DNA of 38,789 bases from a virus, in the IMG/VR virus record IMGVR_UViG_3300030106_001352, positions 1-38,789 of that record. One strand, 5' to 3'. Below are positions 5,727 through 38,789 of this stretch, in pieces. The notes beneath the pieces are model-generated. The model did no database searches and had not been told where the DNA came from. It saw nothing but the letters and a program-made list of their open reading frames with translations. Within the stretch, counting starts at the first letter, position 1, and every line of letters starts with the position of its first letter. Position numbers and translations under genes: made by a program.

Positions 5727-8207
5727 TTAAAGTCCTTCCTTACGTATTCCGGGGTTAAAAAGAGTAGAGTTTCTTTGAGGGTCTCTTAATCTACTGTTTA
5801 CATATCTTTTAATTTCTTCTAAAGACTTTTCAAGAACTTCTGGAGGAAGAGTACGTCCTCTAAATGCACCCTCAAATCTTTCTAATTCTTTCTGTTTTAA
5901 CTCCTCATCAGTAGGCGTTGATGTCTCATCTACTGCTGTTGTTTCAACATCTTTATTTACTGGTAGGTCATCTGTATTAACTGGTTCTCTATCGCCACTA
6001 AAGTCTTCTGCAGTATCAAAGACAACTCCTCCTGAAGTACCTCTAGTAGTTCTAGCTATAGGAGATTCTCCTGCTTCATTTCTAATAAGAGCTTTTCTTT
6101 CTTCAGGGGTTTCTAGTCTTTGGAAGTCTTCAAAAGGAAATTGTTCTCCTCCACTAAAGATTATGTTAATTAAATCTTCTCTTTCTTCTAAACTTAAAGT
6201 ACTTATAAAGTTTTCATAAACTCCCATATTAGTGTCAAATTCTGAAAGCTCTTGATTTGCATTTCCTATAGCTAAAGAATATAATAAGTTTTGTTCAGCA
6301 GTTAGTCCTTCTCCTGCAATATAGCCATAATTTAAACCTCTTATTAAAGTAAGTGATTTCTCTTGTAAACTCATATTATCAAAAGAGTTAGCACTAGGAG
6401 GAACAATATAATCTGAATAATAAGTTCGTTCTATATTATCAAAATAACCTTCTGCAAGTTCTTTATCGAATTGTTCTTCTGCTTTTGTATATAAGAAAGT
6501 GTCAAGTGGTGTATCTGAAGCTGAATCTCTTGCTTTTTTAGCAGACTCTACTACATCTTTTAGAAAAGGTTCTGAGTTTAATAGCATATTTAAATCAACA
6601 GCTAAAGCTTTACCATCATTAGTAACATACTTACCTAAATTATTATTACCTACTAAATAATCAGTTAATACGTTAATTGATTGTTTTACCCAATCTTTAG
6701 TTGACTCTAAATTTAATAAAGCAGCAAAGCCTTCTTCACCAGAATTAACACCTATTGATGACATAATAGATTTTAAAATAGTTTCTCCTGCTCTTAAAGT
6801 ACCTCCGCTTTGAACATCTAATAAATCTGTTAAATCTTTATCTGTTAAGTAAGGCATGTTTCTATAAACTTCTTCTACCTCTAAATTACCATTTAATCTT
6901 TGAATACTTAATCTTCTTAATATAGTAGGGTCAGAAAAATCATTATCATATAAATCTCCACTAGCATACTTTTGTAATAAAACTTTGTACTTATCTACTT
7001 GTTGAGTATACTTTGTATTGTCTGGTAAACCATATCCATTTGCTGAAGATTCTTTCAATAAAACTGCTAATTGTACTTGAGATTTAGCTATTATATCTGC
7101 TCGTTGTTTATTAAAATGAGCAGAAACAGTAGGATAGTTTAGTCTGTAAATTTCAGCTTTATCTTCAGAAAGCGTTGCTAAGTATTCGTCATATCCAGAA
7201 TTTTCTGTAGATAATATTAATAGGTCATTTGTTATACCTTGAACTATTTTTCCTGTAGTATTTGTTAAATCATTAATTAAAGAAATTTGACTACCATTTG
7301 GATTAGCAGTATCTGAAACTTCAAGAGCACTTTGATAATCAAAAGTATCTTTTAAAGCTATTCCATTTTCATTTGTTATATTTTCTAAACTAGATAAAAC
7401 TTCAAACTGTTTAGTATTAACTAATGCTTGGACAACTTTTTTTAAACTTGTACTATGGTTATAATCTTCATCACCTAAAGCAACAAACTGTTTTCTTCCT
7501 AACTCTAATTTGTCATAAATTGCTTGTGCTTTAAATAAATTTGCAGCACCTTCACTTAAATCACTAGCTCCTTCTGGTAACGTAGGTTCTGATATTACTA
7601 TGTTTTCTAAACTATCAAAATAAGTGTTTTCAAAGTTCTGTAGTGTATTTGTAGTACGCTTTTTATTTCCATCTGATATTGCCTTATTCATTTTAGGCAT
7701 AACTTTACTAGAAAAAGCAGCAAACCAAATACCATCTGCTTGAGGAGATTCTTTTGTATAAGTATTAAATACTTGTTGAGGAATAGCATCAAAAGAATCT
7801 TGGTCATATGCTATATATTTAGGGTCATTTTTAGGAAGTTGAGATGATTTTAAGTAAGCTTCTTGTTTAGTGGCTACATCTACTTCCCATTTATAAGAAT
7901 CATTATTAGCTCTTAATTCACTATAAGCTCGCCATTTATTATCTGACCAGCCTTCTGGAGGATTATTATATTCACTTAAAGCTTCAATACCTCTTTTAGC
8001 TATTAGTTCCTGTAAATCAACTTTAGCTTGTTCGTCTTGTCTTTCTTCATAAACTTTTTTTATACCTAATGTAGCTTTAGTTGTATCATCTAATAAACTA
8101 GAAAAAGCTCTTATAATCTCAGGAGTTCTATCATACTCTTGCTCAGCTCGCACTTCAGGAGCACTAGGAGTTACTTTAAATTGTTCTGTTCTTTGTTGTG
8201 TACTCAT
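5727..8207 (-). CDS. Internal virion protein, T7 gp15-like
   Basis: An 826-residue, mostly helical, acidic protein, close to T7 gp15 (747 aa) in size and identical in gene order: directly after the 196-aa gp14-like gene (TAATG stop/start overlap) and before the peptidoglycan hydrolase. In T7, gp14, gp15 and gp16 form the inner core that is ejected and extends the tail into the cell. The C-terminal 150 residues are rich in E, T, R and P and probably flexible. There is no catalytic motif. The assignment rests on synteny and size. Confidence 0.8.
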   Translation of the reverse strand: MSTQQRTEQFKVTPSAPEVRAEQEYDRTPEIIRAFSSLLDDTTKATLGIKKVYEERQDEQAKVDLQELIAKRGIEALSEYNNPPEGWSDNKWRAYSELRANNDSYKWEVDVATKQEAYLKSSQLPKNDPKYIAYDQDSFDAIPQQVFNTYTKESPQADGIWFAAFSSKVMPKMNKAISDGNKKRTTNTLQNFENTYFDSLENIVISEPTLPEGASDLSEGAANLFKAQAIYDKLELGRKQFVALGDEDYNHSTSLKKVVQALVNTKQFEVLSSLENITNENGIALKDTFDYQSALEVSDTANPNGSQISLINDLTNTTGKIVQGITNDLLILSTENSGYDEYLATLSEDKAEIYRLNYPTVSAHFNKQRADIIAKSQVQLAVLLKESSANGYGLPDNTKYTQQVDKYKVLLQKYASGDLYDNDFSDPTILRRLSIQRLNGNLEVEEVYRNMPYLTDKDLTDLLDVQSGGTLRAGETILKSIMSSIGVNSGEEGFAALLNLESTKDWVKQSINVLTDYLVGNNNLGKYVTNDGKALAVDLNMLLNSEPFLKDVVESAKKARDSASDTPLDTFLYTKAEEQFDKELAEGYFDNIERTYYSDYIVPPSANSFDNMSLQEKSLTLIRGLNYGYIAGEGLTAEQNLLYSLAIGNANQELSEFDTNMGVYENFISTLSLEEREDLINIIFSGGEQFPFEDFQRLETPEERKALIRNEAGESPIARTTRGTSGGVVFDTAEDFSGDREPVNTDDLPVNKDVETTAVDETSTPTDEELKQKELERFEGAFRGRTLPPEVLEKSLEEIKRYVNSRLRDPQRNSTLFNPGIRKEGL

Positions 8208-15380: not shown

Positions 15381-15405
15381 AAAAAACCCCTCACGAAGAG
15401 GGGTT
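15381..15405 (-). terminator. Rho-independent terminator after the capsid gene
   Basis: On the minus strand GAACCCCTC-TTCG-TGAGGGGTT is followed by TTTTT. This is a GC-rich stem with a stable UUCG tetraloop 14 nt after the capsid stop. T7 has its late terminator T-phi at the same place, which keeps capsid transcripts more abundant than tail transcripts. Confidence 0.92.
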
Positions 15406-15418
15406 CAAGTACTTAAAA

Positions 15419-19396: not shown

Positions 19397-19425
19397 ACCC
19401 TCTTAAGATAGTCCTAAGAGGGTAG
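19397..19425 (-). terminator. Leader hairpin between phage promoter and late genes (terminator or RNase III-type site)
   Basis: On the minus strand ACCCTCTTA-GGACTATCT-TAAGAGGGT forms a 9-bp stem followed by TTTTATT. Placed after a promoter and before the first gene, it could be a weak terminator or attenuator, or the counterpart of the T7 RNase III processing hairpin R6.5 found after phi6.5. The 3' arm also contains the Shine-Dalgarno of the next gene. Confidence 0.7.
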
Positions 19426-19462
19426 ATTAAACTAATAAAGGAGGATAGTTTACGGGATTATT

Positions 19463-19485
19463 TCCCTATTAGGGAGCATGTTAAA
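19463..19485 (-). promoter_or_regulatory. Putative cognate T7-type RNA polymerase promoter (phi6.5-like)
   Basis: The minus strand reads TTTAACATGCTC, then CCTAATA, then GGGA. With GGG as +1, the T7 consensus matches at TTAA, A, G, C and ATA plus GGGA. A second element at 34575-34597 agrees at 19 of 23 positions. It starts on the stop codon of the exonuclease gene, where T7 has phi6.5, and faces the structural operon. Confidence 0.8.
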
Positions 19486-20257
19486 TCCAATAATCTATTT
19501 CTTTTGTAGTAAAATCGTACTCTTCTCCTCTTAATATTCGGACTGCTCTAGTGTTAGCTATTAAATACTTGTTAATAAAATTATCGCTAGCATCTTCATC
19601 AACATATTTTTTGTATTGTTTTTTATATACTTCTTCTATTTCTTTCCAAATTTCTTTATCCGACAACTGGTCTTCAATACACTTATCCAAAATTTTAACA
19701 GATTTAATCTTACCAATTTTAGGAGCACCTTTAATATTATCAGTTGGGTCTCCCATAAGTACTTGAGAGTAGAAGAAGTGTCTTGCTTGTAGTTCGTCGA
19801 TTTCATATATTTCCTTTTTATTCCAGTTAAAGTGCATGCCTTCTATTTGGTCTAAGTCTTTATCTATTGTACATATTATACTATTACTATCTTGAAGGAG
19901 ACCCATTAAATCATCAGCTTCTAATTTACTTTCTGTCCTAGCATTCCAAGTTTTAGTCATATATTTCTTTAATACATCTACTAAAGTGGGAACAGTAGAA
20001 GCATTTCTATTATCTTTATAACCTTCTAATTCTTTGTATCTAAAATTATCTTTACCTGATAAACAAACAACAGCTTCGTCTGCTCCAGTAGTATCGAGTA
20101 TCCATTGAATAAAATTATCTACATCTACCATAGCTTCTTCTGCTTTAGCTATAGTAATAATGCTAGGCTCTCCTTCGTCTCCAAAGTCAATATCAAACTC
20201 ATTAATAAAAGCAAACCTGTATGCTATAATATCTCCATCTATCAATGCTCTTTTCAT
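19481..20257 (-). CDS. 5'-3' exonuclease (T7 gp6-like, FEN/PIN-type nuclease)
   Basis: 258 residues. 'RALIDGDIIAYRFAF' gives the first metal-binding Asp residues (D7, D9), 'FRYKELEGYKDNRN' the helical arch start, 'LEADDLMGLL' and 'ICTIDKDLDQIEG' further acidic ligands, and 'GDPTDNIKGAPKIGKIKSVKIL' the helix-hairpin region of flap endonucleases. T7 gp6 removes RNA primers and degrades host DNA to feed nucleotide pools. The ATG overlaps the stop of the upstream 32-aa gene and has no strong ribosome site, so it probably depends on coupling. Confidence 0.93.
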   Translation of the reverse strand: MKRALIDGDIIAYRFAFINEFDIDFGDEGEPSIITIAKAEEAMVDVDNFIQWILDTTGADEAVVCLSGKDNFRYKELEGYKDNRNASTVPTLVDVLKKYMTKTWNARTESKLEADDLMGLLQDSNSIICTIDKDLDQIEGMHFNWNKKEIYEIDELQARHFFYSQVLMGDPTDNIKGAPKIGKIKSVKILDKCIEDQLSDKEIWKEIEEVYKKQYKKYVDEDASDNFINKYLIANTRAVRILRGEEYDFTTKEIDYWI

Positions 20258-20564: not shown

Positions 20565-20754
20565 CTTCGCCTCCATCTATATGTATTGTTTTAGTAAAAC
20601 GTGCTCCACAATATGGACAATAAGTAGGGTCATTTATACCCGACATCATCTCTAGTATAAAGAAAAAATTCTTACAACTAGTACACTCTAAATAAGATAA
20701 GTCTTCCATTTTTGGAATATATATCTCATCTTCATTTCTTTCATCTTCTGCCAT
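20536..20754 (-). CDS. 72-aa zinc-ribbon protein
   Basis: It has two CxxC knuckles, C24-x2-C27 (LECTSCKNFF) and C46-x2-C49 (YCPYCGARF), between an acidic start (MAEDERNEDE) and an acidic end (GGEDDDTEEENY). The start is chosen for its GAGGA site 10 bp after the DNA polymerase stop; a longer in-frame ATG at 20808 lies inside the polymerase gene without a site. Small zinc ribbons next to replication genes often bind nucleic acid or polymerase subunits. The specific role is unknown. Confidence 0.75.
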   Translation of the reverse strand: MAEDERNEDEIYIPKMEDLSYLECTSCKNFFFILEMMSGINDPTYCPYCGARFTKTIHIDGGEDDDTEEENY

Positions 20755-25533: not shown

Positions 25534-25584
25534 ACTTATTCTCCTTATAAGTTTATATTTAAGTAGTTATTATAACTACTACTT

Positions 25585-28056
25585 TTAATGGAAGAAGTAT
25601 TTACTTTTAAGTACCTCTTCAATATTTAACTTGCCAAGTTTAGGAGGTTCTGTTTTAGCTCCTAATTGACTCTTAATACTTTGAAGTATATCACCATTTT
25701 TATAGATGTCAACAAAAACTTTTCGTAAAATTTTATGTAAATCATCTACATGGTTTGCATGAGTACCATAAGAGTCATGTATTAAACTAAACTCTCGTAC
25801 TCCTTTATCTTCAAATAGTCTTATTAAAGTTTCCATTAACATACAAGCATCTATACTATGTACAAAGTTAGGTGAGAAGCCAGACTTCTGTTTACCTTCG
25901 GCAGCTATATCTACTCTTTTTTGTATATGTAATTGTACTCTTTGATTACCAATAAATAAACTTACCCTTTTCTTTTTACTCTTCTGATAACTTTGAATTA
26001 CTGGGAAGTTTGTTAATGGAGTATACCATTTAATAAATTGTTGATTACTTTCTTCTACTATAGTATCAAACCAGTCCATTGTTTTTCTCGCACCCACAAC
26101 GACGTTTCTAATAGACTCGCCTAGTTTATCTGCTAAGTACACTGACGCTCTGAATTTGTCTACTGTATATCCTTCTAGTTTTTCTTTAGCTTGTTCTAGT
26201 ATTTGGTCTTTTAATCCATAGTGACTTACACCATAAGGAGTAGTCATAGTACCAGACTTAACTAACTTTCTATCTATTTTATCTTGCCACATTTGACAGT
26301 AGTTTCTTTCTACTCCTGCTTCATCATCTAACTTTAATTGTTCTTTTAATTCTTCTGCTACTTCTGTATAAATATCTTGTGGTTCTTTTGAGTCTAATAA
26401 GTTTACTGCTTTACCTCCTATGTCGTCAAGTGTCATAGCAGATAAATGTTGTAACCCATTACAAGTTCCGTCCATATTAATTGGTAAGTAAGATATGTTA
26501 TTTCTTTTTGCATACTCTAAACAAAATCCAAGAAATTGAAAAGGACTATCAGCATTACACCAATAAGAACACTCTAAAGGTTTTTGTCCACACTCAAGAA
26601 TCCATTTTTTATTTTCTTCAAACCATTCTACTCTTGAATTAAAATCTATTTTATCTTCTCCATAAGCATTAGCACACCCTACTTTCCACCAATACATTCC
26701 TCTTTCTGTTAGTTTATATCCTCTAGAAAATTTTAGTAATGACTTACCTATATCATTTGATTGAGGATTTAATGTAGTAGGTATAGGATATATTCTTCCT
26801 CTAAAATCTAAATTCCATGGGAAGTATATCTCTTTATATTTAGAATAGTCTTCTGCTATTTGCATTTGTGAAAGTAAAGCTATACGTTTAGAGGACATCT
26901 CTCTATTCTCTGTATATACATTAGCACAAGCTTTACTATATCTAGAAACTAAATCTTTATTTTCTTTTTTAAATTCTATCCATTGTTCTTTAGACATTTT
27001 ATCCCAAGGTCTTGGAGGAAGTTCAGTGTTTTCTGTAGTAGGTAATCCTGCTATACCACCACACTCTGCCCACAACGTCTTCATAACCTTAAGCACCTCT
27101 GTGTTTATTGACCAAGAAGTTTGTTGTGCTGTGTTGACAGCTTTCATTGCTATGGTTAAATCCTCCTGCCCCAAATCTCTGTGTTGTTTAATAGTCATAC
27201 GCCTAATAAAATCAGGCTTCCAATTTGGGTGTTGACTTAAGTAGCCACCAGAATATAAGCTTGTCCAATTCACAGGAGGAACAACCATAGGTCTATATGT
27301 TGGAGTAAAAAATGCTAATAGTTCTGAGCTTTCGTTTAGAAATTTTTTAATTTTTTCTGATAGCGTAACCACAAAGCTAGATTTATTTTTACCTACTCTT
27401 ATTCTTTTGCTTTCAAACATTCCCGTTTGCTCAATAGCTAGCTCTAAAAGTTTGTGTCCTAGTCGTAGTTTATCTTCTTTATCAAGTGTGTGTTTTAACA
27501 TTCCTCTTTCACTCATGCACTTCTCTACAAATTCTAATTCTTTATTCTTGTATGCATCTATATGTTTAACATGAGTTTGAATTGAACGCAACATTTTTGG
27601 TTCTTGTTTTTTAAATTTTCTATAGTTAGCTTCGTGTATTAATGTTTCTGCTAACGCTATACATATAGAAGTTTGTTTTGCTAAATCATTATTAGTAGTT
27701 ACTATATGATTAAACACAACCTTTAATGTACAGAAAGCATATTCAAATGGGGATAGTTCAAGGCTTTTAAATATAGAACGAGTAGTAGCTTTTCTACCTG
27801 CATTCCAGCCTCTTTCTTTTGTTGAAGGATAAATCCAGTCTTCGATTGATTTGGATAGTTGTTGAGTAGAGCGAGAAATAAGAAGTATAACTGGTTTTGT
27901 TTCACCAGCTCTACCTCTTTTCTCCATATCGGAAAGAGCTTTTTGATACCTCTCTACAGTTATTTCTATAGATTGGTTCTCTAACTCTTTTTGTTGTTTG
28001 TATAAAGGTTCTATGACAGTGTCATAGAAAGTATTGAAGGACTCATTACTGCTCAC
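25585..28056 (-). CDS. Single-subunit DNA-dependent RNA polymerase (T7 gp1-like)
   Basis: 823 residues (T7: 883). Palm motif A is 'NMDGTCNGLQHLSAM' (D529), motif B 'KLVKSGTMTTPYGVSHYG' (K600, Y608, equivalents of T7 K631 and Y639), motif C 'FVHSIDACML' (D736), then 'IHDSYGTHA' and a C-terminal aromatic end (YFFH; T7 ends FAFA). It transcribes middle and late genes from phage promoters. The start is GTG, supported by GGAGAG eight bases upstream and overlapping the zinc-ribbon gene; there is no nearby in-frame ATG. A copy of the CTATGACA palindrome lies within codons 10-16, inviting control of polymerase production. Confidence 0.97.
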   Translation of the reverse strand: MSSNESFNTFYDTVIEPLYKQQKELENQSIEITVERYQKALSDMEKRGRAGETKPVILLISRSTQQLSKSIEDWIYPSTKERGWNAGRKATTRSIFKSLELSPFEYAFCTLKVVFNHIVTTNNDLAKQTSICIALAETLIHEANYRKFKKQEPKMLRSIQTHVKHIDAYKNKELEFVEKCMSERGMLKHTLDKEDKLRLGHKLLELAIEQTGMFESKRIRVGKNKSSFVVTLSEKIKKFLNESSELLAFFTPTYRPMVVPPVNWTSLYSGGYLSQHPNWKPDFIRRMTIKQHRDLGQEDLTIAMKAVNTAQQTSWSINTEVLKVMKTLWAECGGIAGLPTTENTELPPRPWDKMSKEQWIEFKKENKDLVSRYSKACANVYTENREMSSKRIALLSQMQIAEDYSKYKEIYFPWNLDFRGRIYPIPTTLNPQSNDIGKSLLKFSRGYKLTERGMYWWKVGCANAYGEDKIDFNSRVEWFEENKKWILECGQKPLECSYWCNADSPFQFLGFCLEYAKRNNISYLPINMDGTCNGLQHLSAMTLDDIGGKAVNLLDSKEPQDIYTEVAEELKEQLKLDDEAGVERNYCQMWQDKIDRKLVKSGTMTTPYGVSHYGLKDQILEQAKEKLEGYTVDKFRASVYLADKLGESIRNVVVGARKTMDWFDTIVEESNQQFIKWYTPLTNFPVIQSYQKSKKKRVSLFIGNQRVQLHIQKRVDIAAEGKQKSGFSPNFVHSIDACMLMETLIRLFEDKGVREFSLIHDSYGTHANHVDDLHKILRKVFVDIYKNGDILQSIKSQLGAKTEPPKLGKLNIEEVLKSKYFFH
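28011..28027. repeat. CTATGACA palindrome, copy 1
   Basis: CTATGACA-G-TGTCATAG, perfect 8-bp arms, within codons 10-16 of the RNA polymerase gene. It is the lowest-coordinate member of the family and is encoded in frame as amino acids. Confidence 0.95.
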
Positions 28057-28261
28057 GTTTAGCTCTCCACTCGTCTAAACCATCTTCATGGCTAGGGTCA
28101 AGGAGTAAAGTTCCACACCTTCCACAGTTAGTTCCTATTTCTAACATACCATACATAAGACCACAATTAGTACAGTTACCTGCATGTTTTCCCAAACTTT
28201 TTGTTTGACAAGTATCTTTTTCTACTAAATAGTTGTAGGGTCGTAATTTAAATATACTCAT
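28046..28261 (-). CDS. 71-aa zinc-ribbon protein upstream of RNA polymerase
   Basis: A small protein with C30-x2-C33 (NCTNCGLMYG) and C46-x2-C49 (NCGRCGTLLL), then an acidic segment and a basic end (WRAKREQ). The ATG has a very strong GGAGGTGG site that sits between 8-bp inverted arms (TATAACCA / TGGTTATA), so the site may be hidden in a hairpin. It overlaps the RNA polymerase gene and shares its host-type promoter. It may be a nucleic-acid-binding or transcription-modulating early protein; the function is unknown. Confidence 0.8.
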   Translation of the reverse strand: MSIFKLRPYNYLVEKDTCQTKSLGKHAGNCTNCGLMYGMLEIGTNCGRCGTLLLDPSHEDGLDEWRAKREQ

Positions 28262-28291
28262 ATAACCACCTCCAATTAAGTTATGGTTATA

Positions 28292-28321
28292 AGAGTATCA
28301 TTATTTTTTAATAGTTGTCAA
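28292..28321 (-). promoter_or_regulatory. Host sigma70-type promoter for the RNA polymerase operon
   Basis: On the minus strand a consensus -35 TTGACA (28321-28316), an 18-nt spacer and TACTCT preceded by TG (extended -10). The -35 lies inside a perfect palindrome, AATAGTTG-T-CAACTATT (28310-28326), a candidate operator. Transcription would begin just before the 71-aa gene. Confidence 0.7.
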
Positions 28322-28330
28322 CTATTATTT

Positions 28331-28684
28331 TTATTTTTCTATATCTAATTCTAATTGATTAGCGTTAGTATCATTATCTAAATACCAACCTTTGTCTTTA
28401 CATCTTAATATATATTCAGCATACTCTCTTCTGCCTTCAAATATTTGTTCGCTTCCATCAGTTACTTCATTGACTGCTTTGTTACAATCATCTATCTCAT
28501 TGTTACAAGCATCTTCAATAAATTTTTCTATTTTAAATATTCTAGATTCTAACCACCTAACGTAGTTTTCATTAAAAGAATATTGTACTATTGGCTGAAA
28601 CGACTTCTCACATTCTACAATTTTTTCTTTCATTGGTTGTTCTCCAGTGACTGCTGTGAATGTATCATATATTTTTTCTTTCAT
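28331..28684 (-). CDS. 117-aa early protein of unknown function
   Basis: An acidic, helical protein (MKEKIYDTFTAVTGEQPMKEK...WLESRIFKIEKFIEDACNNEIDDC) ending NQLELDIEK. No domain was recognised. The ATG has AAAAGGAAAG upstream, preceded by a T-run and palindrome copy 2. It is isolated between a 235-bp structured intergenic region and the RNA polymerase promoter, in the place where T7 encodes host-takeover proteins. A takeover or anti-defence role is only a guess from position. Confidence 0.75.
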   Translation of the reverse strand: MKEKIYDTFTAVTGEQPMKEKIVECEKSFQPIVQYSFNENYVRWLESRIFKIEKFIEDACNNEIDDCNKAVNEVTDGSEQIFEGRREYAEYILRCKDKGWYLDNDTNANQLELDIEK

Positions 28685-28714
28685 AATTACTTTCCTTTTA
28701 GTTGTTAAAAAAAG

Positions 28715-28731
28715 CTATGACAGTGTCATAG
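28715..28731. repeat. CTATGACA palindrome, copy 2
   Basis: CTATGACA-G-TGTCATAG, 30 nt upstream of the 117-aa gene's ATG. On the minus strand it is followed by C and seven T, so this copy could also act as a weak terminator. Confidence 0.95.
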
Positions 28732-28825
28732 GATTTTGGGTTAACCTATACACCCAAAGGTCTCTCATCACAAACGGATTATTTCATAAAAGGTTATTGT
28801 CTCCTTTCTTTGTTTTTAGGTTAAT

Positions 28826-28912
28826 AAAAAAGTGAGTGTTTTTAACTAGGAAACAGAACACTCAAACTGCCTACAAAGGCGTGAAAATGAATAAGGAAAC
28901 ACTCCTTTGTAT
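28826..28912 (-). ncRNA. Candidate phage small RNA or attenuator leader
   Basis: On the minus strand a promoter-like sequence ends at 28919. It is followed by stem 1 (TACAAAGG at 28911-28904 with CCTTTGTA at 28879-28872) and stem 2 (GAGTGTT at 28863-28857 with AACACTC at 28840-28834) closed by ACTTTTTT, a rho-independent terminator. A second GAGTGTT (28904-28898) next to stem 1 could pair with the same AACACTC, giving mutually exclusive folds. This would be an RNA of about 85 nt, either released as an sRNA or controlling read-through from the GAT genes into the 117-aa gene. Confidence 0.5.
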
Positions 28913-28918
28913 ATGTGT

Positions 28919-28947
28919 ATTATACTATATCTGTAAAGTGTGTGCAA
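28919..28947 (-). promoter_or_regulatory. Possible host-type promoter at the end of the second GAT gene
   Basis: On the minus strand TTGCAC (28947-28942), a 17-nt spacer and a perfect TATAAT (28924-28919) that overlaps the stop codon of the GAT gene. The -35 is only half consensus. Its placement immediately before the two-hairpin unit makes it worth noting. Confidence 0.5.
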
Positions 28948-29777
28948 CAACAGTGGCAAGTTATAATACTTTGCTTACTTTTTCTTTCTCCTAAAAATGC
29001 CAAACAATAAGGACAAGTATCATCAGCTAAATCTATCTGTGCTTGTGTACTTAATTCTTGTACATTAGTAGTAGTATAGTGGTTTCTTAAGTAAGTGTCA
29101 TTACTTTTATTCTTCTTTTTCTTTTTATTCTTACCACCATATAAGTAACTATCATTGAAGCCCCAATTATTGAAGCCTCTATTATAGTAACCCATATTGC
29201 ACCCATAACTATAAGTAGAATTAGAATACCAATTCCCGTCACTAGCATTAGTCCAACCACTACCAATCATAGTAATACCTTTGTTAGTAAGTATAGCAAC
29301 TTTGTTCGAGCCACTTACAACTGTATTCATAATAGATTTGAAACCTTTACCATAGTTACTAAACCTAGCTTCGTCAATATACTTGGTAAGTACCATAGTA
29401 TCTGATACTCCTTCTTTAGCTTCATCTCCAAACTTACCCCCCAATACACCATTGTGAATAAGTATTCTGTCTGTCTTACCTTCTGTTTTTCTCATCTTCT
29501 TGTAAGAGTTAGTAATCGGAAAAGGGTGGCAACATTCTTTAGACGTACCACCATGAGTAGTAATCCTCATGTGAATGAGAGCCTCATCTTCTTTTCTGAT
29601 ATTCTCTTGTAATACTTTGTAGTATTCATCTACATCAAAGTAACCTTTGGCATACTTGATATAGCCATTACGTTTAACTGCATACCCACCCCCGTCGGGA
29701 TTGTTGTCAAAAGAATTTTCTATATACTCTTTTGATGGTATGTCTTTACCTTTCGGTTTGATTATTGCAATACACAT
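28920..29777 (-). CDS. Class II glutamine amidotransferase with C-terminal zinc ribbon (second GAT)
   Basis: 285 residues. The N-terminal Ntn-hydrolase domain (1-175) has the full class II set: nucleophile C2 after Met (MCIAIIKP), NPDGGGYA, RITTHG (R71-G76), HNG (108-110) and SDTM (S125-D126). Such domains release ammonia from glutamine for a partner enzyme. Residues 180-222 are low in complexity (Y, N, G, S then poly-Lys). The C-terminus has C255-x2-C258 and a C274-x-C-C-C cluster, a probable zinc ribbon absent from the other GAT. It follows the amidoligase gene by 24 nt, with a palindrome copy 13 nt before the ATG and AGGAAAGG between. Confidence 0.9.
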   Translation of the reverse strand: MCIAIIKPKGKDIPSKEYIENSFDNNPDGGGYAVKRNGYIKYAKGYFDVDEYYKVLQENIRKEDEALIHMRITTHGGTSKECCHPFPITNSYKKMRKTEGKTDRILIHNGVLGGKFGDEAKEGVSDTMVLTKYIDEARFSNYGKGFKSIMNTVVSGSNKVAILTNKGITMIGSGWTNASDGNWYSNSTYSYGCNMGYYNRGFNNWGFNDSYLYGGKNKKKKKNKSNDTYLRNHYTTTNVQELSTQAQIDLADDTCPYCLAFLGERKSKQSIITCHCCCTHFTDIV

Positions 29778-29790
29778 AATTTACCTTTCC

Positions 29791-29806
29791 TATGACACTT
29801 GTCATA
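29791..29806. repeat. CTATGACA palindrome, copy 3
   Basis: TATGACA-CT-TGTCATA, 7-bp arms, filling the intergenic space between the amidoligase stop and the GAT start, 13 nt before the ATG with the ribosome site in between. Confidence 0.9.
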
Positions 29807-31691
29807 TACATATATTTTTCCTAAAGTAACTATCATTGTTCAACACTTTGTATAGTTGTTTGTACTTCTTTGCTCTGTTATCAACAAACGCTTTGTAGTA
29901 ATCCCAAGCAGTAGTATTCATAACTTCTTCTTTCGTGGCTTGCATTGACCAATGCACAAGGGAATCTACAAAGTCAACATACTTCATCATGTGAATCCCA
30001 TCATAGTTTGGTGTAGCAAAGATACGAAACTCAACAGTATGTTCATTCTGAAAGTTGAGTGCTTGATACCTACTATCAATGGAATCCCAACCAAAGTAGT
30101 CCCAAGAATCTTTAGAATAGTCTTTACTAAACCTTGCCCAATTTGCACTACGTCTGCCTGCAATCCTACATACAAAAGGTTTGTACCTATGACAAAACCA
30201 ATCCATTTTACGTAGGGTACTATTGTCGTTCCCCATACCTACATAACTTCTGTTGATATGAATATGAACACCACAATCATTATCCTCATTGTCAGGGTCA
30301 TGATATTTCTCCAACATATCTTGAGAGAATTGTGGTAAATGCTTGTCGTGAAATCTATGACTTGAAGGGTGTGTAATAAATTCACAACCCTCTGATAGAC
30401 TTCCGTCGTGTTGAATGTCGCCAAGTATTCTATAGTTCCTACGAATGCTATGACAGTCGTCATAGTCGGGTCTACCATACCCGTCAACCTCCAACTCCAC
30501 ACCCATAAGCAATGTTTTGTGTGGGTCTTCTTTACCTATTGTACGCATAATCCAAGTATTGAAGTTGTGATAACTGTTGACTTCATGCCCCATAGCATGT
30601 GCAATAGCTTTGTCCCCACAAGAAATACATTTACTAATATACATAGAATGTTTTTCTATTAAAGCACCACAACTAGTACAGAATTTAACACCAATAGAAA
30701 GTAACCCCGACCTACTACACCTCCTACCTTCATGATATATTAAGTCCCTATTGTGATGAAGTGTATTAGTAATTTCACACAAGCCATAATTCTCTTGTAC
30801 ATGTTCGGGTTTGTATCTACTGCCATTGATAATTGGTGCTTCCCACCTATGACCCACGACTCTATCATTAGAGTAATCACAACGCCACCACTGTGGTATC
30901 TGAACATAACAATCTTTATACAACTCTTCAAAGAACTCTGGCATTACACAAAGCGTACTTCTGTCTTGAGAATCTGCAGGGTCTGAAACAACTAGTATCA
31001 AGCTAGAGTCCATATCATTAAACCAACTGCTCATTCTATCACAAGGATATATTTGAGATTGACAAGTTCTCATGTGAGTAAAAGTCTCTCTATAGAGTTT
31101 GTCTAATACTCGCATTTCTTCAATGTGTTGATTTAATCTAGCCAAGTCTTCACGTGATGAGCGACTTGGGTTTATCTCTAGTCCCTCTGCTAGTATGTCT
31201 TTCTCTTCTTGATACGCTTGTTTGAAGTTTGCTCTTATCTCCATGTTACAAATATTGAGAGCTTCTTTACAAGCATAAGAGTGTATCTCATAAAACCAAT
31301 CATGATTACGTTGACTATACAAACCTAGTAACTCTACTTGTCTACCTTCACACCTTGCAACTGACCTAGACCAAGAGTCATAGTGTCTTACTCTGCAGAT
31401 ATACTTTCTTTCTCGCATTGTAAAGAAAGCTCTAACTCTACGCTTTCTACCCACATCAACCCTTATCCTAGTACCCGTTGCATTCCCTTGATTGTCACAG
31501 TCTTGCACACATGGAAGTTTCAAGAAGAGATACATGTCTTCTAGTGTAGTAATATTTACTTTGACTTCGGGATACTCACAACACTCTTCATAACTTGGAA
31601 AGTTTTTATGAAACTCATACCAACCTTTCTTGTCATTGTTTACTCGTATCTCTTCAACAAGTTTTCTGAGTCTTTCTTCACTGTTACTCAT
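29802..31691 (-). CDS. Amidoligase (glutamine-synthetase-like COOH-NH2 ligase) with N-terminal extension and zinc ribbon
   Basis: 629 residues. The C-terminal 230 residues carry the Amidoligase_2 pattern: 'GVELEVDG' (397-404; E399, E401), 'HDGSL...CEFITHP' (428-441; D429, E437), 'CGVHIHINR' (473-481; H476, H478), an Arg-rich stretch 'RIAGRRSANWAR', and 'TVEFRIF' (552-558). In the glutamine-synthetase fold these bind Mg-ATP and the acyl phosphate. A zinc ribbon (C338/C341, C355/C358) directly precedes the core, and residues 1-330 (Arg, Cys and aromatic rich) are unrecognised, perhaps for substrate binding. GAT genes flank it on both sides, the upstream one by ATGA overlap. It probably joins an amine, or ammonia from a GAT, to a carboxylate; the substrate is unknown. 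Confidence 0.9.
   Translation of the reverse strand: MSNSEERLRKLVEEIRVNNDKKGWYEFHKNFPSYEECCEYPEVKVNITTLEDMYLFLKLPCVQDCDNQGNATGTRIRVDVGRKRRVRAFFTMRERKYICRVRHYDSWSRSVARCEGRQVELLGLYSQRNHDWFYEIHSYACKEALNICNMEIRANFKQAYQEEKDILAEGLEINPSRSSREDLARLNQHIEEMRVLDKLYRETFTHMRTCQSQIYPCDRMSSWFNDMDSSLILVVSDPADSQDRSTLCVMPEFFEELYKDCYVQIPQWWRCDYSNDRVVGHRWEAPIINGSRYKPEHVQENYGLCEITNTLHHNRDLIYHEGRRCSRSGLLSIGVKFCTSCGALIEKHSMYISKCISCGDKAIAHAMGHEVNSYHNFNTWIMRTIGKEDPHKTLLMGVELEVDGYGRPDYDDCHSIRRNYRILGDIQHDGSLSEGCEFITHPSSHRFHDKHLPQFSQDMLEKYHDPDNEDNDCGVHIHINRSYVGMGNDNSTLRKMDWFCHRYKPFVCRIAGRRSANWARFSKDYSKDSWDYFGWDSIDSRYQALNFQNEHTVEFRIFATPNYDGIHMMKYVDFVDSLVHWSMQATKEEVMNTTAWDYYKAFVDNRAKKYKQLYKVLNNDSYFRKNICI
30448..30465. repeat. 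CTATGACA palindrome, degenerate copy 4
   Basis: CTATGAC-AGTC-GTCATAG inside the amidoligase core. The 7-bp arms are intact but the spacer is four bases and the inner A/T pair is lost. It may be a coding coincidence or a decayed copy. Confidence 0.6.
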
Positions 31692-32629
31692 TTCTTAGCC
31701 TCCTTTTCTATGACACTTGTCATAGGTTGTCTACTACTCACAACATCATACGCTTGTGAACTACTTAATCCTTCAAGCATCAACTCGGTAGTAGTAGCTT
31801 TGTTAAGCCACTTGACTATATTGTCATAAGAATACTTACCACAATGCGAAGTATTGTTAGCCTTCAAAGGTTTGTTACTGTACACACAAACTCCTTTAGA
31901 TACCAAGTACAAGTCATCTCCTTCCAAGTGTTCAAAGTCTTCGTTGTAGTGATTACCTACTTTAGAATAACCATAACAATTTACCCACTTCTTGTTTGCA
32001 GTGAGAACAACACATGGTGCTAATGCTCGTTCATAGCTGTCATTGGAATACAAACAATCTTCATGTTCTTCCCAAGTACCCACAGTAACCCATTCTTCTT
32101 GCCCTTTATCAACTCGCATGTAAGCAAGTCTGCAAGGGTCGGAAGCCAATGCAAGCATACGCCTTGACTCTTTCTTGAAAGGGTCTAGACCACACTTCAT
32201 AGTCATACGATTGAATGTCATTGTATCACTTACATCATCACCTTTGTAAGTTTCAGTTTCAATATCAATCATGCCATTGTGCATGAACACAGTACCCACA
32301 GTGTTAGAAGTTTTACACATTTGAAAATATGACATTGTCATAGGAAATGGGTGACATTGTTCTGCTACTGCGTACAACTTACCAGCTTTGTTAACGCCAT
32401 GAGTAGCAATTCTCATATGAATAAATGCTACATCATCAGTGCTTACATTAGCAAGTAAGTGTTTGTAATAGGCTTCAAAGTCAAAGAAGCCTTTTGTTAT
32501 CTTGAATCTACGTCTGCTTTTATCTAACGTAGCCAACCCACCACCATGTCGATTGTGCATAAAACATCTTTGCAACACTTCACGTCTTGGTAGCTCGACT
32601 CCATTAGGTTTGATAATTGCTACACACAT
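31688..32629 (-). CDS. Class II glutamine amidotransferase (first GAT)
   Basis: 313 residues with nucleophile C2 (MCVAIIKPNG), 'NRHGGGLA', 'HMRIATHG' (R73-G78, the spacing of GlmS), 'MHNG' (116-119) and 'VSDTM' (D135). All class II signature residues are present, so glutaminase activity is expected. The C-terminal 140 residues contain no sugar-isomerase, synthetase or zinc-ribbon module, so it must work with another protein, most likely the adjacent amidoligase, whose ATG overlaps its stop. It shares the opening 'MC-AIIKP-G' and overall plan with the second GAT, but the two are clearly diverged, suggesting an old duplication or separate acquisition. Start follows AAGGAGG and overlaps the 31-aa ORF. 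Confidence 0.9.
   Translation of the reverse strand: MCVAIIKPNGVELPRREVLQRCFMHNRHGGGLATLDKSRRRFKITKGFFDFEAYYKHLLANVSTDDVAFIHMRIATHGVNKAGKLYAVAEQCHPFPMTMSYFQMCKTSNTVGTVFMHNGMIDIETETYKGDDVSDTMTFNRMTMKCGLDPFKKESRRMLALASDPCRLAYMRVDKGQEEWVTVGTWEEHEDCLYSNDSYERALAPCVVLTANKKWVNCYGYSKVGNHYNEDFEHLEGDDLYLVSKGVCVYSNKPLKANNTSHCGKYSYDNIVKWLNKATTTELMLEGLSSSQAYDVVSSRQPMTSVIEKEAKK
31708..31725. repeat. CTATGACA palindrome, copy 5
   Basis: CTATGACA-CT-TGTCATAG inside the last codons of the first GAT gene (encoding part of PMTSVIE), 16 nt before the amidoligase ATG, with AAAAGGAGG between. Confidence 0.95.
32328..32343. repeat. CTATGACA palindrome, copy 6
   Basis: TATGACA-T-TGTCATA followed by G, within the first third of the first GAT gene, encoded in frame. 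Confidence 0.9.
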
Positions 32630-32724
32630 TACTTAACCTCCTTGTTTACAATTAGATAAAGTATTAACTTCTTACGAATAGATAATATCTTTATCCAATC
32701 TATTATTAGATAATCTATATTCAT
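32629..32724 (-). CDS. 31-aa ORF at the head of the GAT-amidoligase operon
   Basis: A short ORF (MNIDYLIIDWIKILSIRKKL...NKEVK) with its own AAAGGAAAG site, lying 15 nt after palindrome copy 7. Its stop overlaps the GAT ATG (TAATG). The peptide is hydrophobic with a basic middle. It may be a leader peptide that controls GAT translation or a real membrane-associated microprotein. Codon-level conservation would be needed to decide. Confidence 0.5.
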   Translation of the reverse strand: MNIDYLIIDWIKILSIRKKLILYLIVNKEVK

Positions 32725-32739
32725 AATACACTTTCCTTT

Positions 32740-32756
32740 CTATGACAGTGTCATAG
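32740..32756. repeat. CTATGACA palindrome, copy 7
   Basis: CTATGACA-G-TGTCATAG, 15 nt before the 31-aa ORF, with AAAGGAAAG between. Confidence 0.95.
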
Positions 32757-32801
32757 GTTTTGTTTACAATACACACAGTACCCACAAAATAATATAATGT
32801 G

Positions 32802-32877
32802 CCTTGCTACTCGTAGCTCATATTGACACAGTCTTTCAAAGCGTAAAGTTCGCCACAAGACTACGAGTAAGGCAAGG
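32802..32877 (-). ncRNA. Structured leader RNA of the GAT-amidoligase operon
   Basis: A long inverted repeat: CCTTGC...TACTCGTAG (32802-32816) and CTACGAGTA...GCAAGG (32861-32877). It gives about 15 bp with a two-base bulge around a 44-nt loop, which itself has GCG/CGC and AGTCTT/AAGACT pairing options. It lies in the leader downstream of the strong host promoter and before the first ORF, with no U-tract. It could be a cis-regulatory RNA, a protein-binding site or a processing site. I could not match it to a tRNA or known riboswitch. Confidence 0.5.
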
Positions 32878-32910
32878 TTTGGTCTGTAAGAATCGCACCT
32901 ATTAAAATTC

Positions 32911-32928
32911 CTATGACAAGTGTCATAG
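32911..32928. repeat. CTATGACA palindrome, copy 8
   Basis: CTATGACA-AG-TGTCATAG, about 45-60 nt downstream of the presumed start point of the strong early promoter, a classic place for a roadblock operator. Confidence 0.95.
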
Positions 32929-32977
32929 AAAAGTATTAGATACGTAGTAGATATATTTCTCTACTGTTAATATAAAT

Positions 32978-33006
32978 AGTATATCATAACAAATATAATA
33001 TGTCAA
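32978..33006 (-). promoter_or_regulatory. Strong host sigma70 promoter of the GAT-amidoligase operon
   Basis: On the minus strand a perfect -35 TTGACA (33006-33001), a 17-nt spacer ending TGA and -10 TATACT (32983-32978) with extended TGn. It is the closest to consensus in the window. Palindrome copies lie on both sides (copies 8 and 9). Confidence 0.85.
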
Positions 33007-33058
33007 TCAAGACAAGAAACTTTTTTATTGTACCCACAAACTTTAAAATCTGAAAAAA

Positions 33059-33074
33059 TATGACAATGTCATAG
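33059..33074. repeat. CTATGACA palindrome, copy 9
   Basis: TATGACA-A-TGTCATA followed by G, about 55 bp upstream of the -35 of the strong early promoter. Confidence 0.9.
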
Positions 33075-33094
33075 AAATTAAATCAGGAAGAAAA

Positions 33095-33231
33095 GTTACA
33101 AAATTGTAGTTTTTAATCCTGATGAAAATGTTACAAAATTGTAATTGTTACAAAATTGCCATGAGCTCTGGAAGCGAGCAAAAAAAAACCCTTACAAGTT
33201 TGTAAGGGTTTCAATGTTACATTTTTGTAAC
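33095..33231. repeat. Cluster of GTTACAAAATTGTAAC-type palindromes
   Basis: Four related sites in 137 bp: 33095-33109 (GTTACAAAATTGTAG), 33130-33144 (GTTACAAAATTGTAA), 33147-33160 (GTTACAAAATTGCC) and 33216-33231 (GTTACATTTTTGTAAC). The terminator stem between them, CTTACAAGTTTGTAAG, has the same pattern. They lie between the 181-aa gene and the early promoter: a second operator-like or iteron-like family, distinct from the CTATGACA one. Confidence 0.75.
33181..33210 (-). terminator. Rho-independent terminator after the 181-aa gene
   Basis: On the minus strand AACCCTTACAA-AC-TTGTAAGGGTT followed by eight T, 22 nt after the stop codon. It insulates the 181-aa transcript from the GAT operon promoter. 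Confidence 0.9.
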
Positions 33232-33777
33232 TTATGCAACTAATTTATTTTTCTTCTTTGTAACTTTCACGTCATACAATTTTACTAAGTCTTCTGTATG
33301 ACCGAACAACTCGCCTACTGCTACGACTGTTCTTATTTCGTCGTCTTCTGTTAGTATTGAATCAACTGTAAGAGAATCAATATATTTTCCTAATGCCTTG
33401 ACGATTTTCTCAATTTCAAGCGTATCGTCAATTTTAGTTATTTTATAACTTAGAGATTTTTTCGCTCTCTCTAAATGTTTATTAACTAGGTTATATTGCT
33501 TACGACCCAAAGAGCCTTCTTCTAATTCAGCTTGCTTCTTTTTGCCATGTCTAGCAATAATTTCTTTCCTAGCTAATCTTCCTACTTCGCCAATAATTGA
33601 AAGCCCTTGTTCTTTAATTTCCTTTGCTTTCTTTTCGCTCATAGAACTAGTTACTGTTTTACAGCCTAACTCTTTTAAGTATCCTAATAATGTAACGTCT
33701 TGGTTAGCAAGATTTTCTACACTATTAACTATTAGCTCTTTTGCTTTATTTCTTATGTTGTCTAGTTTATTACTCAT
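33232..33777 (-). CDS. 181-aa early protein of unknown function, candidate regulator
   Basis: A lysine- and glutamate-rich helical protein starting MSNKLDNIRNKAKELIVNSV. This ATG has AGGA nine bases upstream. An in-frame ATG at 33948 would give 238 aa, but it has no ribosome site, would put a host-type promoter and a palindrome inside the gene, and so is rejected. The C-terminus is basic (VKVTKKKNKLVA). It is the first substantial gene after the genome-end region, monocistronic with its own promoter and terminator, and surrounded by both palindrome families. It is the natural candidate for the factor that binds one of them. No helix-turn-helix could be assigned with confidence. Confidence 0.72.
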   Translation of the reverse strand: MSNKLDNIRNKAKELIVNSVENLANQDVTLLGYLKELGCKTVTSSMSEKKAKEIKEQGLSIIGEVGRLARKEIIARHGKKKQAELEEGSLGRKQYNLVNKHLERAKKSLSYKITKIDDTLEIEKIVKALGKYIDSLTVDSILTEDDEIRTVVAVGELFGHTEDLVKLYDVKVTKKKNKLVA

Positions 33778-33842
33778 TTTATTTTTTCCTAATGGCAAGG
33801 CTAATTCAACTGTAGAATTAACAAACCTTGCAAAATCGTTTT

Positions 33843-33859
33843 CTATGACAGTGTCATAG
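33843..33859. repeat. CTATGACA palindrome, copy 10
   Basis: CTATGACA-G-TGTCATAG, between the promoter and the start codon of the 181-aa gene, 65 nt before the ATG. Confidence 0.95.
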
Positions 33860-33909
33860 GTTTTTTGATTTCTCTTACTTAGGATATATTTCTCAACTAA
33901 CATAAATAG

Positions 33910-33938
33910 ATTTTCGCATATTTTCGAAAATACGTCAA
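33910..33938 (-). promoter_or_regulatory. Host-type promoter of the 181-aa gene
   Basis: On the minus strand TTGACG (33938-33933), a 17-nt spacer containing the palindrome ATTTTCGAAAAT, and GAAAAT preceded by TGC (extended -10). It is moderately close to consensus, and its position supports the downstream start at 33777. Confidence 0.6.
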
Positions 33939-33971
33939 CACAAGACATGAAAAAAGATTAATTAATTTTTT

Positions 33972-33988
33972 CTATGACATTGTCATAG
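33972..33988. repeat. CTATGACA palindrome, copy 11
   Basis: CTATGACA-T-TGTCATAG, about 35 bp upstream of the -35 of the 181-aa gene promoter. Confidence 0.95.
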
Positions 33989-34049
33989 GTTTTTTATGAG
34001 CTCTTCAAAAACCTCGAAAGTTGAAAAAAAATAGGCAAAAATGAACAAT

Positions 34050-34090
34050 GCCTTTTAAACGCCCATATTTGCCTTTTAAAGCCTTTTAAG
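34050..34090. repeat. Short GCCTTTTAA repeats near the presumed genome end
   Basis: GCCTTTTAAA at 34050-34059 and 34071-34080 and GCCTTTTAAG at 34081-34090, with related TTAAAAGG at about 34220 and 34284. T7 has arrays of short CCTAAAG-type repeats just inside its terminal repeats, and these look analogous. Confidence 0.6.
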
Positions 34091-34365
34091 GCTTAGCAAG
34101 GTTATCATATTACTTACAAGGCGTTCGTTTAATATACGCAATCCTCGAAGGCACAATATGTTGTGTCTTAAAAAATAACGCATACCATATATTGTGGTGT
34201 GACACAATGACTCTCAAAGACTTAAAAGGCTTACAAGTTCTACGTATTTAAATACCTATAAACTGTAAGGTTTTTAAGTAATTAAAAGGGGTAATTTTTT
34301 TACGTGATGTAACGAAACACCCCTCATATTTTTGTAACATTTTTTCAAACGCTACTCACAAACTT

Positions 34366-34425
34366 TTAAGACTTTTTAATTGTCTTTTTGTAAGTTTGAC
34401 CTCTGTAATTAAGGGTAACTTCCAT
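34366..34425 (-). CDS. 19-codon ORF in the leader, YRG-type micropeptide
   Basis: MEVTLNYRGQTYKKTIKKS with AGGAG seven bases before the ATG, a better site than many real genes here. 'LNYRGQTY' recalls the L-x-YRG-x-x-Y core of small DUF4278-type proteins. It lies about 150 nt downstream of a phage promoter. It could be a genuine micropeptide or a leader. The evidence is the ribosome site and the motif only. Confidence 0.45.
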   Translation of the reverse strand: MEVTLNYRGQTYKKTIKKS

Positions 34426-34484
34426 AGTAATCTCCTATGTTAAGCGTTCCTTCCCTACACTTTGTAGGTACTTCCGAGGTATTT

Positions 34485-34501
34485 CTATGACAATGTCATA
34501 G
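34485..34501. repeat. CTATGACA palindrome, copy 12
   Basis: CTATGACA-A-TGTCATAG, about 75 nt downstream of the phage promoter behind the large terminase and 60 nt upstream of the 19-codon ORF. It is the highest-coordinate copy. Confidence 0.95.
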
Positions 34502-34574: not shown

Positions 34575-34597
34575 CCCCTTCTAGAGAGCATGTTAAA
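34575..34597 (-). promoter_or_regulatory. Putative cognate T7-type RNA polymerase promoter (phiOR-like)
   Basis: The minus strand reads TTTAACATGCTC, then TCTAGAA, then GGGG. The first 12 bases are identical to the element at 19463-19485, with 19 of 23 matching in all. It starts 14 bp after the large terminase stop, where T7 has phiOR, and faces the genome-end region. In T7 that promoter helps replication and packaging. Confidence 0.78.
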
Positions 34598-34611: not shown

Positions 34612-36270
34612 TTACATGCCTATCCAATTTAAAGGTTTAGAGGTTCTTCTCCCCGACATCCATTCAGTAGACTTCTCCATTTCATCTATTATCCAGTCAT
34701 ACTTCTGTTTGTCTTCTGCTTCTTTCTCGTCTGTAGCTAATATGTCCTGCCAGTATTGGATTGCTAAAGAAAGAGCGTCGATAAGGTCATCATGCTTTAA
34801 AGCCCTCTTAGACCTATTCATTCTTGTGAACTGATAACTAAAAGAATGAAAGTATTCTAGAGGGTCTCTTGCAACTTGGACATCATCTTCTATTACTTTT
34901 CTACTAAAAACTAACCTATGACCTGATACTACTGGTTCAAGAGTGTTAATTATTCGTAGTTCTTTCTGACCCTTGACTGTTGTTTCTTGTATTGTGCAAG
35001 GGTGCGTTCTAACTAGAAATGGAGTGAATAACTTTGTAAACATTCCGTTACCAAAGTTAGCCTCTAGATAGACTGCATTTACTTTATGTTGTTTTGCTAT
35101 ATTAGCAAGCTTCTGTAGTGCTCCATCAGAGTATCCTCCTCGGATTCCTCCAAGGGCTGTTACATAAAGCTTGCCATGAAGAGTCTTTACGACTGCATAG
35201 CCAGTCTTATCAGCTCCTCTACCAGATGGGTCTATAGCTAAGACGCTACCTTCAAAGTCAATCCATTCACTTGAGGTGTTAATTGGACTGTACCAAGCGT
35301 CATTACCCATTCCTACTGTAGGTAGTTCTTCTATACAAGTACTTTTATTAGCTCCCCATTGTACACTTGTAGGAGCTTTATCGCCATCTAGGCTCATTAT
35401 TATTAGGTCTTCTGTTTTAAGTGGGAATCTATCTTCATCAGATAAGGAAGTATCTAACATAAACTGTAATTTAAAGGTAGACCTACCCATATTACTTTCT
35501 CTATCTCTTAAATCTTCTTCATCAAACCTCATTGGGTCTATAGGTTCTCCTTCATCTTTCTCTGACTCTACAATCATAGGTGCAAGACAACCTTTATAAT
35601 CGATTATTTTTTCTACTGCTGGCATTCTAGCTGTCCATACTCGTAGTTTATAATCTCTTTCTGCTAGTTTATTATAAATTGTTTCATAGTTTTGTGGTGT
35701 TCCTAGATATTTAATCTTACCATTAGGTAATAATACTGATTCAAATTCTCCACATCTATGTAAAAGTTTAGCTCTCATGTCATTTGTAAGTGAATTTGAG
35801 ATTACCTCTATATCGTCTGCAATTACCTCTGAAGCACGACTACCTGTTAACTGACCTGTGATACCAACTGACTTAACAGAAGGGGCGTGTGAAGCTCCTG
35901 AGCCTGCTACATCAAACGCTACGTTAGAGTCTCTAAATCCACCACGCAAAGGTGTTAACATTTCTACTTCATTAATTAATCTTTTAGTAAAAATGGAGAA
36001 CTCATCAGCCCTAATTTTAGAAGCAGATACAATAAGGAATTTTTCTTCAGGGTTGTTGAAGAGTCTCCAGAGAACATAAACACTTGTAAGATAAGACTTA
36101 CCTACTCCACGAAAGGCTTCGATAATAATTCTATCTCCACCATGTTGCAGGTAGTCCATAATATCTATTTGAACATCTGTTGGTCTAGGCAATTCAAGGT
36201 GCTTCCAAATAACCCAAGTAAATAACTTTAAGTTATCTTTACAGTCTTGAACACTTACATTCATTACCAT
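34612..36270 (-). CDS. Terminase large subunit (T7 gp19-like)
   Basis: 552 residues (T7: 586). ATPase Walker A is 'FRGVGKSY' (G55-K58-S59), Walker B 'SEVIADDIE' (D152, D153), and the nuclease domain opens with 'VLAIDPSGRGADKTG' (D347) and ends with an acidic stretch 'HDDLIDALSLAIQYW'. It pumps DNA into the capsid and cuts concatemers. It starts at the end of the upstream basic-protein gene; a second ATG two codons in (36264) overlaps that stop as TAATG and is equally possible. Confidence 0.97.
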   Translation of the reverse strand: MVMNVSVQDCKDNLKLFTWVIWKHLELPRPTDVQIDIMDYLQHGGDRIIIEAFRGVGKSYLTSVYVLWRLFNNPEEKFLIVSASKIRADEFSIFTKRLINEVEMLTPLRGGFRDSNVAFDVAGSGASHAPSVKSVGITGQLTGSRASEVIADDIEVISNSLTNDMRAKLLHRCGEFESVLLPNGKIKYLGTPQNYETIYNKLAERDYKLRVWTARMPAVEKIIDYKGCLAPMIVESEKDEGEPIDPMRFDEEDLRDRESNMGRSTFKLQFMLDTSLSDEDRFPLKTEDLIIMSLDGDKAPTSVQWGANKSTCIEELPTVGMGNDAWYSPINTSSEWIDFEGSVLAIDPSGRGADKTGYAVVKTLHGKLYVTALGGIRGGYSDGALQKLANIAKQHKVNAVYLEANFGNGMFTKLFTPFLVRTHPCTIQETTVKGQKELRIINTLEPVVSGHRLVFSRKVIEDDVQVARDPLEYFHSFSYQFTRMNRSKRALKHDDLIDALSLAIQYWQDILATDEKEAEDKQKYDWIIDEMEKSTEWMSGRRTSKPLNWIGM

Positions 36271-38544: not shown

Positions 38545-38789
38545 CAAGTTCCTCCAATCTAGTTTCTAAAAATTGTATTTTCATATTTTGTTCTACATCT
38601 AAAGGTAATATACCATCAGACTCCCATTCGTCAATCCATATTTCATTAGCACTTATATCGTCTAGCATTCTAACTTGCTCGTGTTCTAATAACATAATAC
38701 GTTCATCTATATGAAAGTATCCTATAACTGCTACTGCTACTCCTCCTATAATAGATAATAAATTTCTTAAAGGTATAGTTATATCAGTA
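38516..38789 (-). CDS. Single-pass membrane protein, spanin-like position (3' part, cut by the window end)
   Basis: This is the remainder of the gene that starts at 116. Read across the junction (position 1 continuing at 38711) it gives a 103-residue protein with stop TGA at 38516-38518. The downstream half is acidic (DERIMLLEHEQVRMLDDIS; EWESDGILPLDVEQNMKIQF; LETRLEELDGKIKEQSK) and likely a coiled coil outside or along the membrane. The stop lies 29 nt inside the next gene. The last base of the window changes GGC to GGT, both Gly. Confidence 0.85.
   Translation of the reverse strand, partial: TDITIPLRNLLSIIGGVAVAVIGYFHIDERIMLLEHEQVRMLDDISANEIWIDEWESDGILPLDVEQNMKIQFLETRLEELDGKIKEQSK
38712..38788. 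repeat. Terminal overlap of the contig, right copy
   Basis: Exact copy of bases 1-77. The following base, 38789, differs from base 78, and the change is synonymous in the gene spanning the junction. One of the two copies should be removed to give the 38,711-bp circular unit. Confidence 0.95.

Follow-up and report, generated by a model that had tools for sequence, protein, structure and literature searches.

Two elements in the window, the whole 38,789-nt stretch of viral DNA analyzed here, are very probably promoters of the phage's own T7-type RNA polymerase (RNAP). This reading, put forward in the initial annotation, is supported by the position, strand, layout and conservation of the elements, as well as by T7-type contact residues predicted in the polymerase.

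Probable promoter elements at two gene borders

Promoter 1 (TTTAACATGCTCCCTAATAGGGA; 19463-19485, minus strand) occupies the position of T7 phi6.5, overlapping the stop codon of the exonuclease gene (19481-20257, minus strand; phrog_107) located directly upstream. Promoter 2 (TTTAACATGCTCTCTAGAAGGGG; 34575-34597, minus strand) occupies the position of phiOR, which in T7 is the right-end promoter and a secondary origin. Separated by 14 nt from the stop of the large terminase gene that immediately precedes it (34612-36270, minus strand; phrog_38), it is directed at the genome end, followed by a 600-nt gap and the early genes in the end-joined assembly. Both elements are on the strand that carries all main predicted genes. 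The two share 19 of 23 bases, including all of the first 12, confirming the pair as originally described. A scan of the window with their joint consensus returned two matches at ≤3 mismatches, compared with 0.01 expected from 100 shuffles, and none of the 100 shuffled windows reached two such matches.

Eight distinct sites from the phage family define the consensus rTTAACmTGCTCyCTAwTAGGGr. The layout of this ~23-bp element fits that of a T7-type promoter, with an AT-rich segment at -17 to -13, a specific block at -12 to -7, an A/T-rich stretch at -4 to -1 and a purine-rich start. Together with the gene borders and the strand, it bears out the proposed T7 promoter layout and the assignment to the phi6.5 and phiOR positions.

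The initial annotation had further placed GGG at +1. The start layout is indeed T7-like, but the start itself is probably one base off. The start of the family consensus is AGGG, not GGG, and aligning CTC to -9 to -7, its place in T7, makes the A preceding GGG the more likely +1 at both promoters (19467 and 34579, respectively). Anchored in this way, the sites read CTCCCTAAT and CTCTCTAGA, each followed by AGGG. The T7 phi2.5 promoter (CTCACTATT followed by AGGG) shares this start, and its +1 is annotated at 9107 in the T7 record, with the same placement on the A before GGG.

Site 1 might also be taken for a host sigma-70-type promoter, given that it reads TTAACA-16-AATAAT, a 10/12 match. The second hexamer, however, is missing in site 2 and in the relatives, the conserved bases fall in the would-be spacer, and sigma-70-like matches are no commoner in the window than in shuffles, making host promoters an extremely improbable explanation for the elements. 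A conserved operator or an RNA-processing hairpin would account for the inverted repeat in the element core (TCCCTAATAGGGA), which is perfect at site 1 and recurs as an inverted repeat in the variant found in one relative, contig L006 (CTCCTTAATAGGAG). Yet the DNA palindrome is interrupted in site 2 (CTCTCTAGAAGGGG), and the non-palindromic TTAAC-TG to the left of the core is kept at both borders. A T-run directly after the core is missing, which also speaks against the palindromic core as a terminator. We hence consider an operator or processing hairpin very unlikely, and favor the interpretation of both elements as phage promoters.

A T7-type RNA polymerase and its predicted promoter contacts

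The presumed reader of both promoters is encoded in the same genome. It is a single-subunit T7-type RNAP of 823 aa (25585-28056, minus strand; phrog_414, E=1e-224), which matches T7 RNAP among solved structures (E about 1e-112) and keeps the catalytic equivalents of D537, K631, Y639 and D812.

The codons of the specificity loop (25912-25989, minus strand) include those for R697 (T7 R746), S699 (N748), R706 (R756) and Q708 (Q758). Compared with T7 RNAP, the loop lacks one residue, and the equivalence of R706 with R756 was assigned by R-x-Q spacing, in our judgement. T7 RNAP contacts its promoter at -10/-11 through N748, at -9 through R756 and at -8 through Q758 (PMC5937735). The CTC at -9 to -7 of the two promoters fits the R746, R756 and Q758 equivalents, through which the polymerase would read it, together with the AT-rich segment near -17 to -13. 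Among 14 aligned RNAPs, Q at position 758 occurs only in T7, T3 and this phage family. Sampled phages with other promoters differ there, the residue being K, Y, M or A in K11, SP6, Syn5, roseophage CRP-125 and four pelagiphages. A point against the fit is S699 of the window RNAP, which stands at the T7 N748 position where its relatives have N, a difference accompanied by no matching promoter change.

Conservation and promoter number

Relatives of the RNAP are few, encompassing contigs L003 and L004 at 97-99% identity and L005, L006 and L014/L015 at 72-73%; scanning genome contigs with the RNAP alignment identified no relative. The elements are kept in relatives, contrary to the loss that would have refuted the initial annotation: contigs with 68-85% identical genes hold promoters at the same places, in a comparison where all genomes come from one small group. 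The motif is present at the exonuclease border in all examined contigs covering that border (the window, L004, L005, L014, L015, L017 and L062), and at the terminase border in all examined contigs covering the latter (the window, L007, L087, L009, L010 and L011). In L005, the 21-base core TTAACATGCTCCCTAATAGGG is unchanged despite a 68% identical exonuclease, and the upstream sequence has diverged. Sense-strand copies are repeated at gene borders, with two in the window, two on the L014/L015/L056 contigs and three positions used across the family.

A strict pattern searched over all viral contigs matched 14 stretches, 13 of which belong to this phage family and lie at these gene borders. The fourteenth (L066) comes from a contig unrelated to the family, where it runs antisense within a predicted gene, and was discarded as a chance match. 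A looser pattern added the L006 site and eight contigs without detected relation to the family, which were taken as chance or unrelated matches.

The third position lies over the RNAP stop codon, before the ssb region, where L014/L015/L056 carry a motif copy and L006 a diverged form. This post-RNAP site is absent in the window, L003, L004 and L005, which have inverted repeats there instead (in the window, within the gap at 25534-25584, minus strand). L005 and L006 are closer to each other (84% identity) than to the window, yet differ at the post-RNAP site, pointing to a likely gain or loss of this promoter within the group. The presence or absence of the site among close relatives suggests that promoter number changes within one phage group.

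The initial annotation had reported no further clear copies in the window, and our searches agree. In the weight-matrix search it had suggested, a matrix built from the promoter sites of the phage family scored promoters 1 and 2 at 36.1 and 30.6 bits, with the next best place at 12.9, inside the null range. Mismatch scans found nothing else in the genome within 5 mismatches, and the runner-up (17/23 matches) lies inside a gene. Candidate promoters at 6148-6170, 2083-2105 and 20595-20617 (plus strand) were rejected as intragenic and scoring at chance level. Of the 17 phage promoters annotated in T7, a like scan run as a positive control recovered 16, each at ≤5 mismatches.

Bases 1-78 of the window match bases 38712-38789 as a direct repeat at 77 of 78 positions. 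End repeats of this kind typically mark complete, end-joined assemblies. No completeness value is given in the collection record, but the assembly appears closed and the genome complete, so two is probably the count for the whole genome and not for a fragment. It had been proposed that the polymerase either serves very few promoters or that others have diverged. The former fits better, because the genome appears closed and because the post-RNAP position used by some relatives has no site here. It is nevertheless conceivable, if rather unlikely, that in addition to these two promoters the RNAP uses strongly diverged sites missed by similarity searches, for instance after the RNAP gene or before the capsid gene. 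Some phage RNAPs accept unrelated sequences, with two used by KP34 RNAP (PMC6834552), and the replication genes and the capsid gene have no recognizable phage promoter of their own in the window. Against such diverged sites, the weight-matrix and mismatch scans returned nothing above chance even though the same scan finds the weaker T7 promoters, and the relatives that do have the third site carry a clear copy of it. A polymerase serving very few promoters remains the preferred reading.

Predicted transcription and comparison with known systems

The order of genes on the minus strand (terminase, early genes, RNAP, single-strand binding protein, primase-helicase, DNA polymerase, exonuclease, portal, scaffold, capsid, tail and internal virion proteins) is the same as in T7. 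One early gene (29802-31691, minus strand) weakly matches an amidoligase family (phrog_7469, E=1.5e-8), unexpected in a T7-like early region.

In the simplest model, the host RNA polymerase would continue from the early genes across the replication genes up to a hairpin past the exonuclease gene, and the phage RNAP would take over for the late genes, starting transcription at or beside the A of AGGG. Promoter 1 would open the late operon, comprising the structural genes from portal, scaffold and capsid onward. Like phiOR in T7, promoter 2 would be directed toward the joined ends of the genome and the early region, and it may additionally supply early-region transcripts when the DNA is end-joined. 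Transcription of the replication genes (ssb to exonuclease) would fall to the host RNA polymerase or to read-through starting at promoter 2, since neither a phage promoter nor a terminator-like site was found on the gene strand (minus) from the RNAP gene to the end of the exonuclease gene. A terminator-like hairpin with a T-run (19397-19423, minus strand) separates promoter 1 from the first late ATG and has counterparts in L005, L014 and L017. In these three contigs a terminator-like hairpin stands immediately before the promoter at the exonuclease border. Another terminator-like hairpin follows the capsid gene (15384-15406, minus strand), at the position of T7 Tphi.

Just past promoter 1 there is a conserved leader (AAACTATCCTCCTTTATTAGTTT; 19425-19455, minus strand), with equivalents in L004, L005, L014 and L017, in which complementary ends flank a pyrimidine-rich stretch that we take to resemble the anti-Shine-Dalgarno end of 16S rRNA. 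We considered a stable 5' stem immediately past +1 as a special feature and rejected it: several leaders show one, but z < -2 was obtained in just one of the seven promoter leaders.

Downstream of promoter 2, 67 nt from its predicted +1, lies a glutamine riboswitch (Rfam RF01739; 34441-34512, minus strand), with stronger matches at the same place in L087 (11755-11812) and L009 (3040-3097); L010/L011 have promoter 2 without a riboswitch. The riboswitch is followed by a short ORF, MEVTLNYRGQTYKKTIKKS (34366-34425, minus strand), kept in L007, L087 and L009. In the window, L087 and L009, this sequence and its variants correspond to a conserved 18-19-residue peptide with a YRGxxY motif. Glutamine riboswitches are already known in the marine phages Melnitz and Mosig (PMC9004378), and in cyanobacteria the related Downstream-peptide motif precedes short ORFs (PMC2864571). 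The riboswitch beside promoter 2 suggests a nitrogen input. We tentatively propose, as a possibility we hold to be less than even, that the promoter 2 transcript leader (riboswitch and YRGxxY peptide) gates output by host nitrogen status, with the replication genes left to the host RNA polymerase. Such gated output would either cross the junctions between genomes of a concatemer or enter the early region. A host-type promoter could also lie between promoter 2 and the riboswitch.

The early region additionally harbors an array of 15-16-bp palindromes that is confined to it (window positions 28012-34500). The 11 copies, some of them intragenic, with one in the RNAP start, are located at 28012, 28716, 29791, 31709, 32328, 32741, 32912, 33059, 33844, 33973 and 34486, and one copy forms a stem within the riboswitch. 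Relatives carry palindromes at L087:12215-14685, L005:1048 and 5056, L056:222 and 1030, and L010:7937 and 8744. The forms are TATGACA-N(1-2)-TGTCATA in the window group, GTAGACA-N-TGTCTAC in the L005/L087/L009 group and TTGACA-N-TGTCAA in L056/L010, with the core GACA-N-TGTC common to all groups. The palindromes resemble operators for a putative regulator whose specificity shifts.

The search of open-licence papers found no description of this promoter, and the polymerase-promoter pair is ordinary in kind and apparently undescribed. It supplies an RNAP with its promoters from an uncultured marine T7-like phage group, the polymerase sharing ~32% identity with its counterparts in cultured phages. 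What limits the use of such enzymes, according to a published account, is the prediction of their promoters (PMC11475235).

T7 itself is among the closest known models. The likeness to T7 phi6.5, phiOR and phi2.5 extends to the gene borders (after the exonuclease and after the terminase), the strand, the AT-rich -17 region, CTC at -9 to -7 and CTA at -5 to -3. In contrast, T7 has 17 phage promoters versus two here, bases -14 to -10 differ, and the two RNAPs are 32% identical.

The closest cultured terminases (48-50% identity) are those of pelagiphages HTVC121P, HTVC120P and Bylgja and of roseophage CRP-125, whose genomes each hold a handful of repeated promoter-like motifs, in many cases behind the RNAP and terminase genes. 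A quick search suggested about five promoter-like sites each in CRP-125 (3390, 5931, 7555, 16905 and 36549), Bylgja (14338, 23365, 28742, 31274 and 40646) and HTVC120P (4271, 6804, 16177, 31793 and 41626), as opposed to two in the window; HTVC121P has motifs at 7503 and 13526. In these cultured marine autographiviruses the motifs are mostly at RNAP, terminase and late-gene borders. The CRP-125 (TTAGGTTGCACCATAG) and Bylgja (CCCCTTATTAGAACCA) motifs differ from the window promoters, and the RNAPs of all four phages lack Q at 758.

Cyanophage Syn5 has two RNAP promoters in its genome (ATTGGGCACCCGTAA), one of them directly after the terminase (PMC3950665), and our analysis re-found them after the terminase and inside the RNAP gene. 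The Syn5 promoter sequence is unrelated to that of the window, its other copy lies within the RNAP gene, and its RNAP has E at the 746 position and K at the 758 position, unlike the window RNAP. The phage analyzed here is the second marine T7-like phage, after Syn5, with two recognized promoters.
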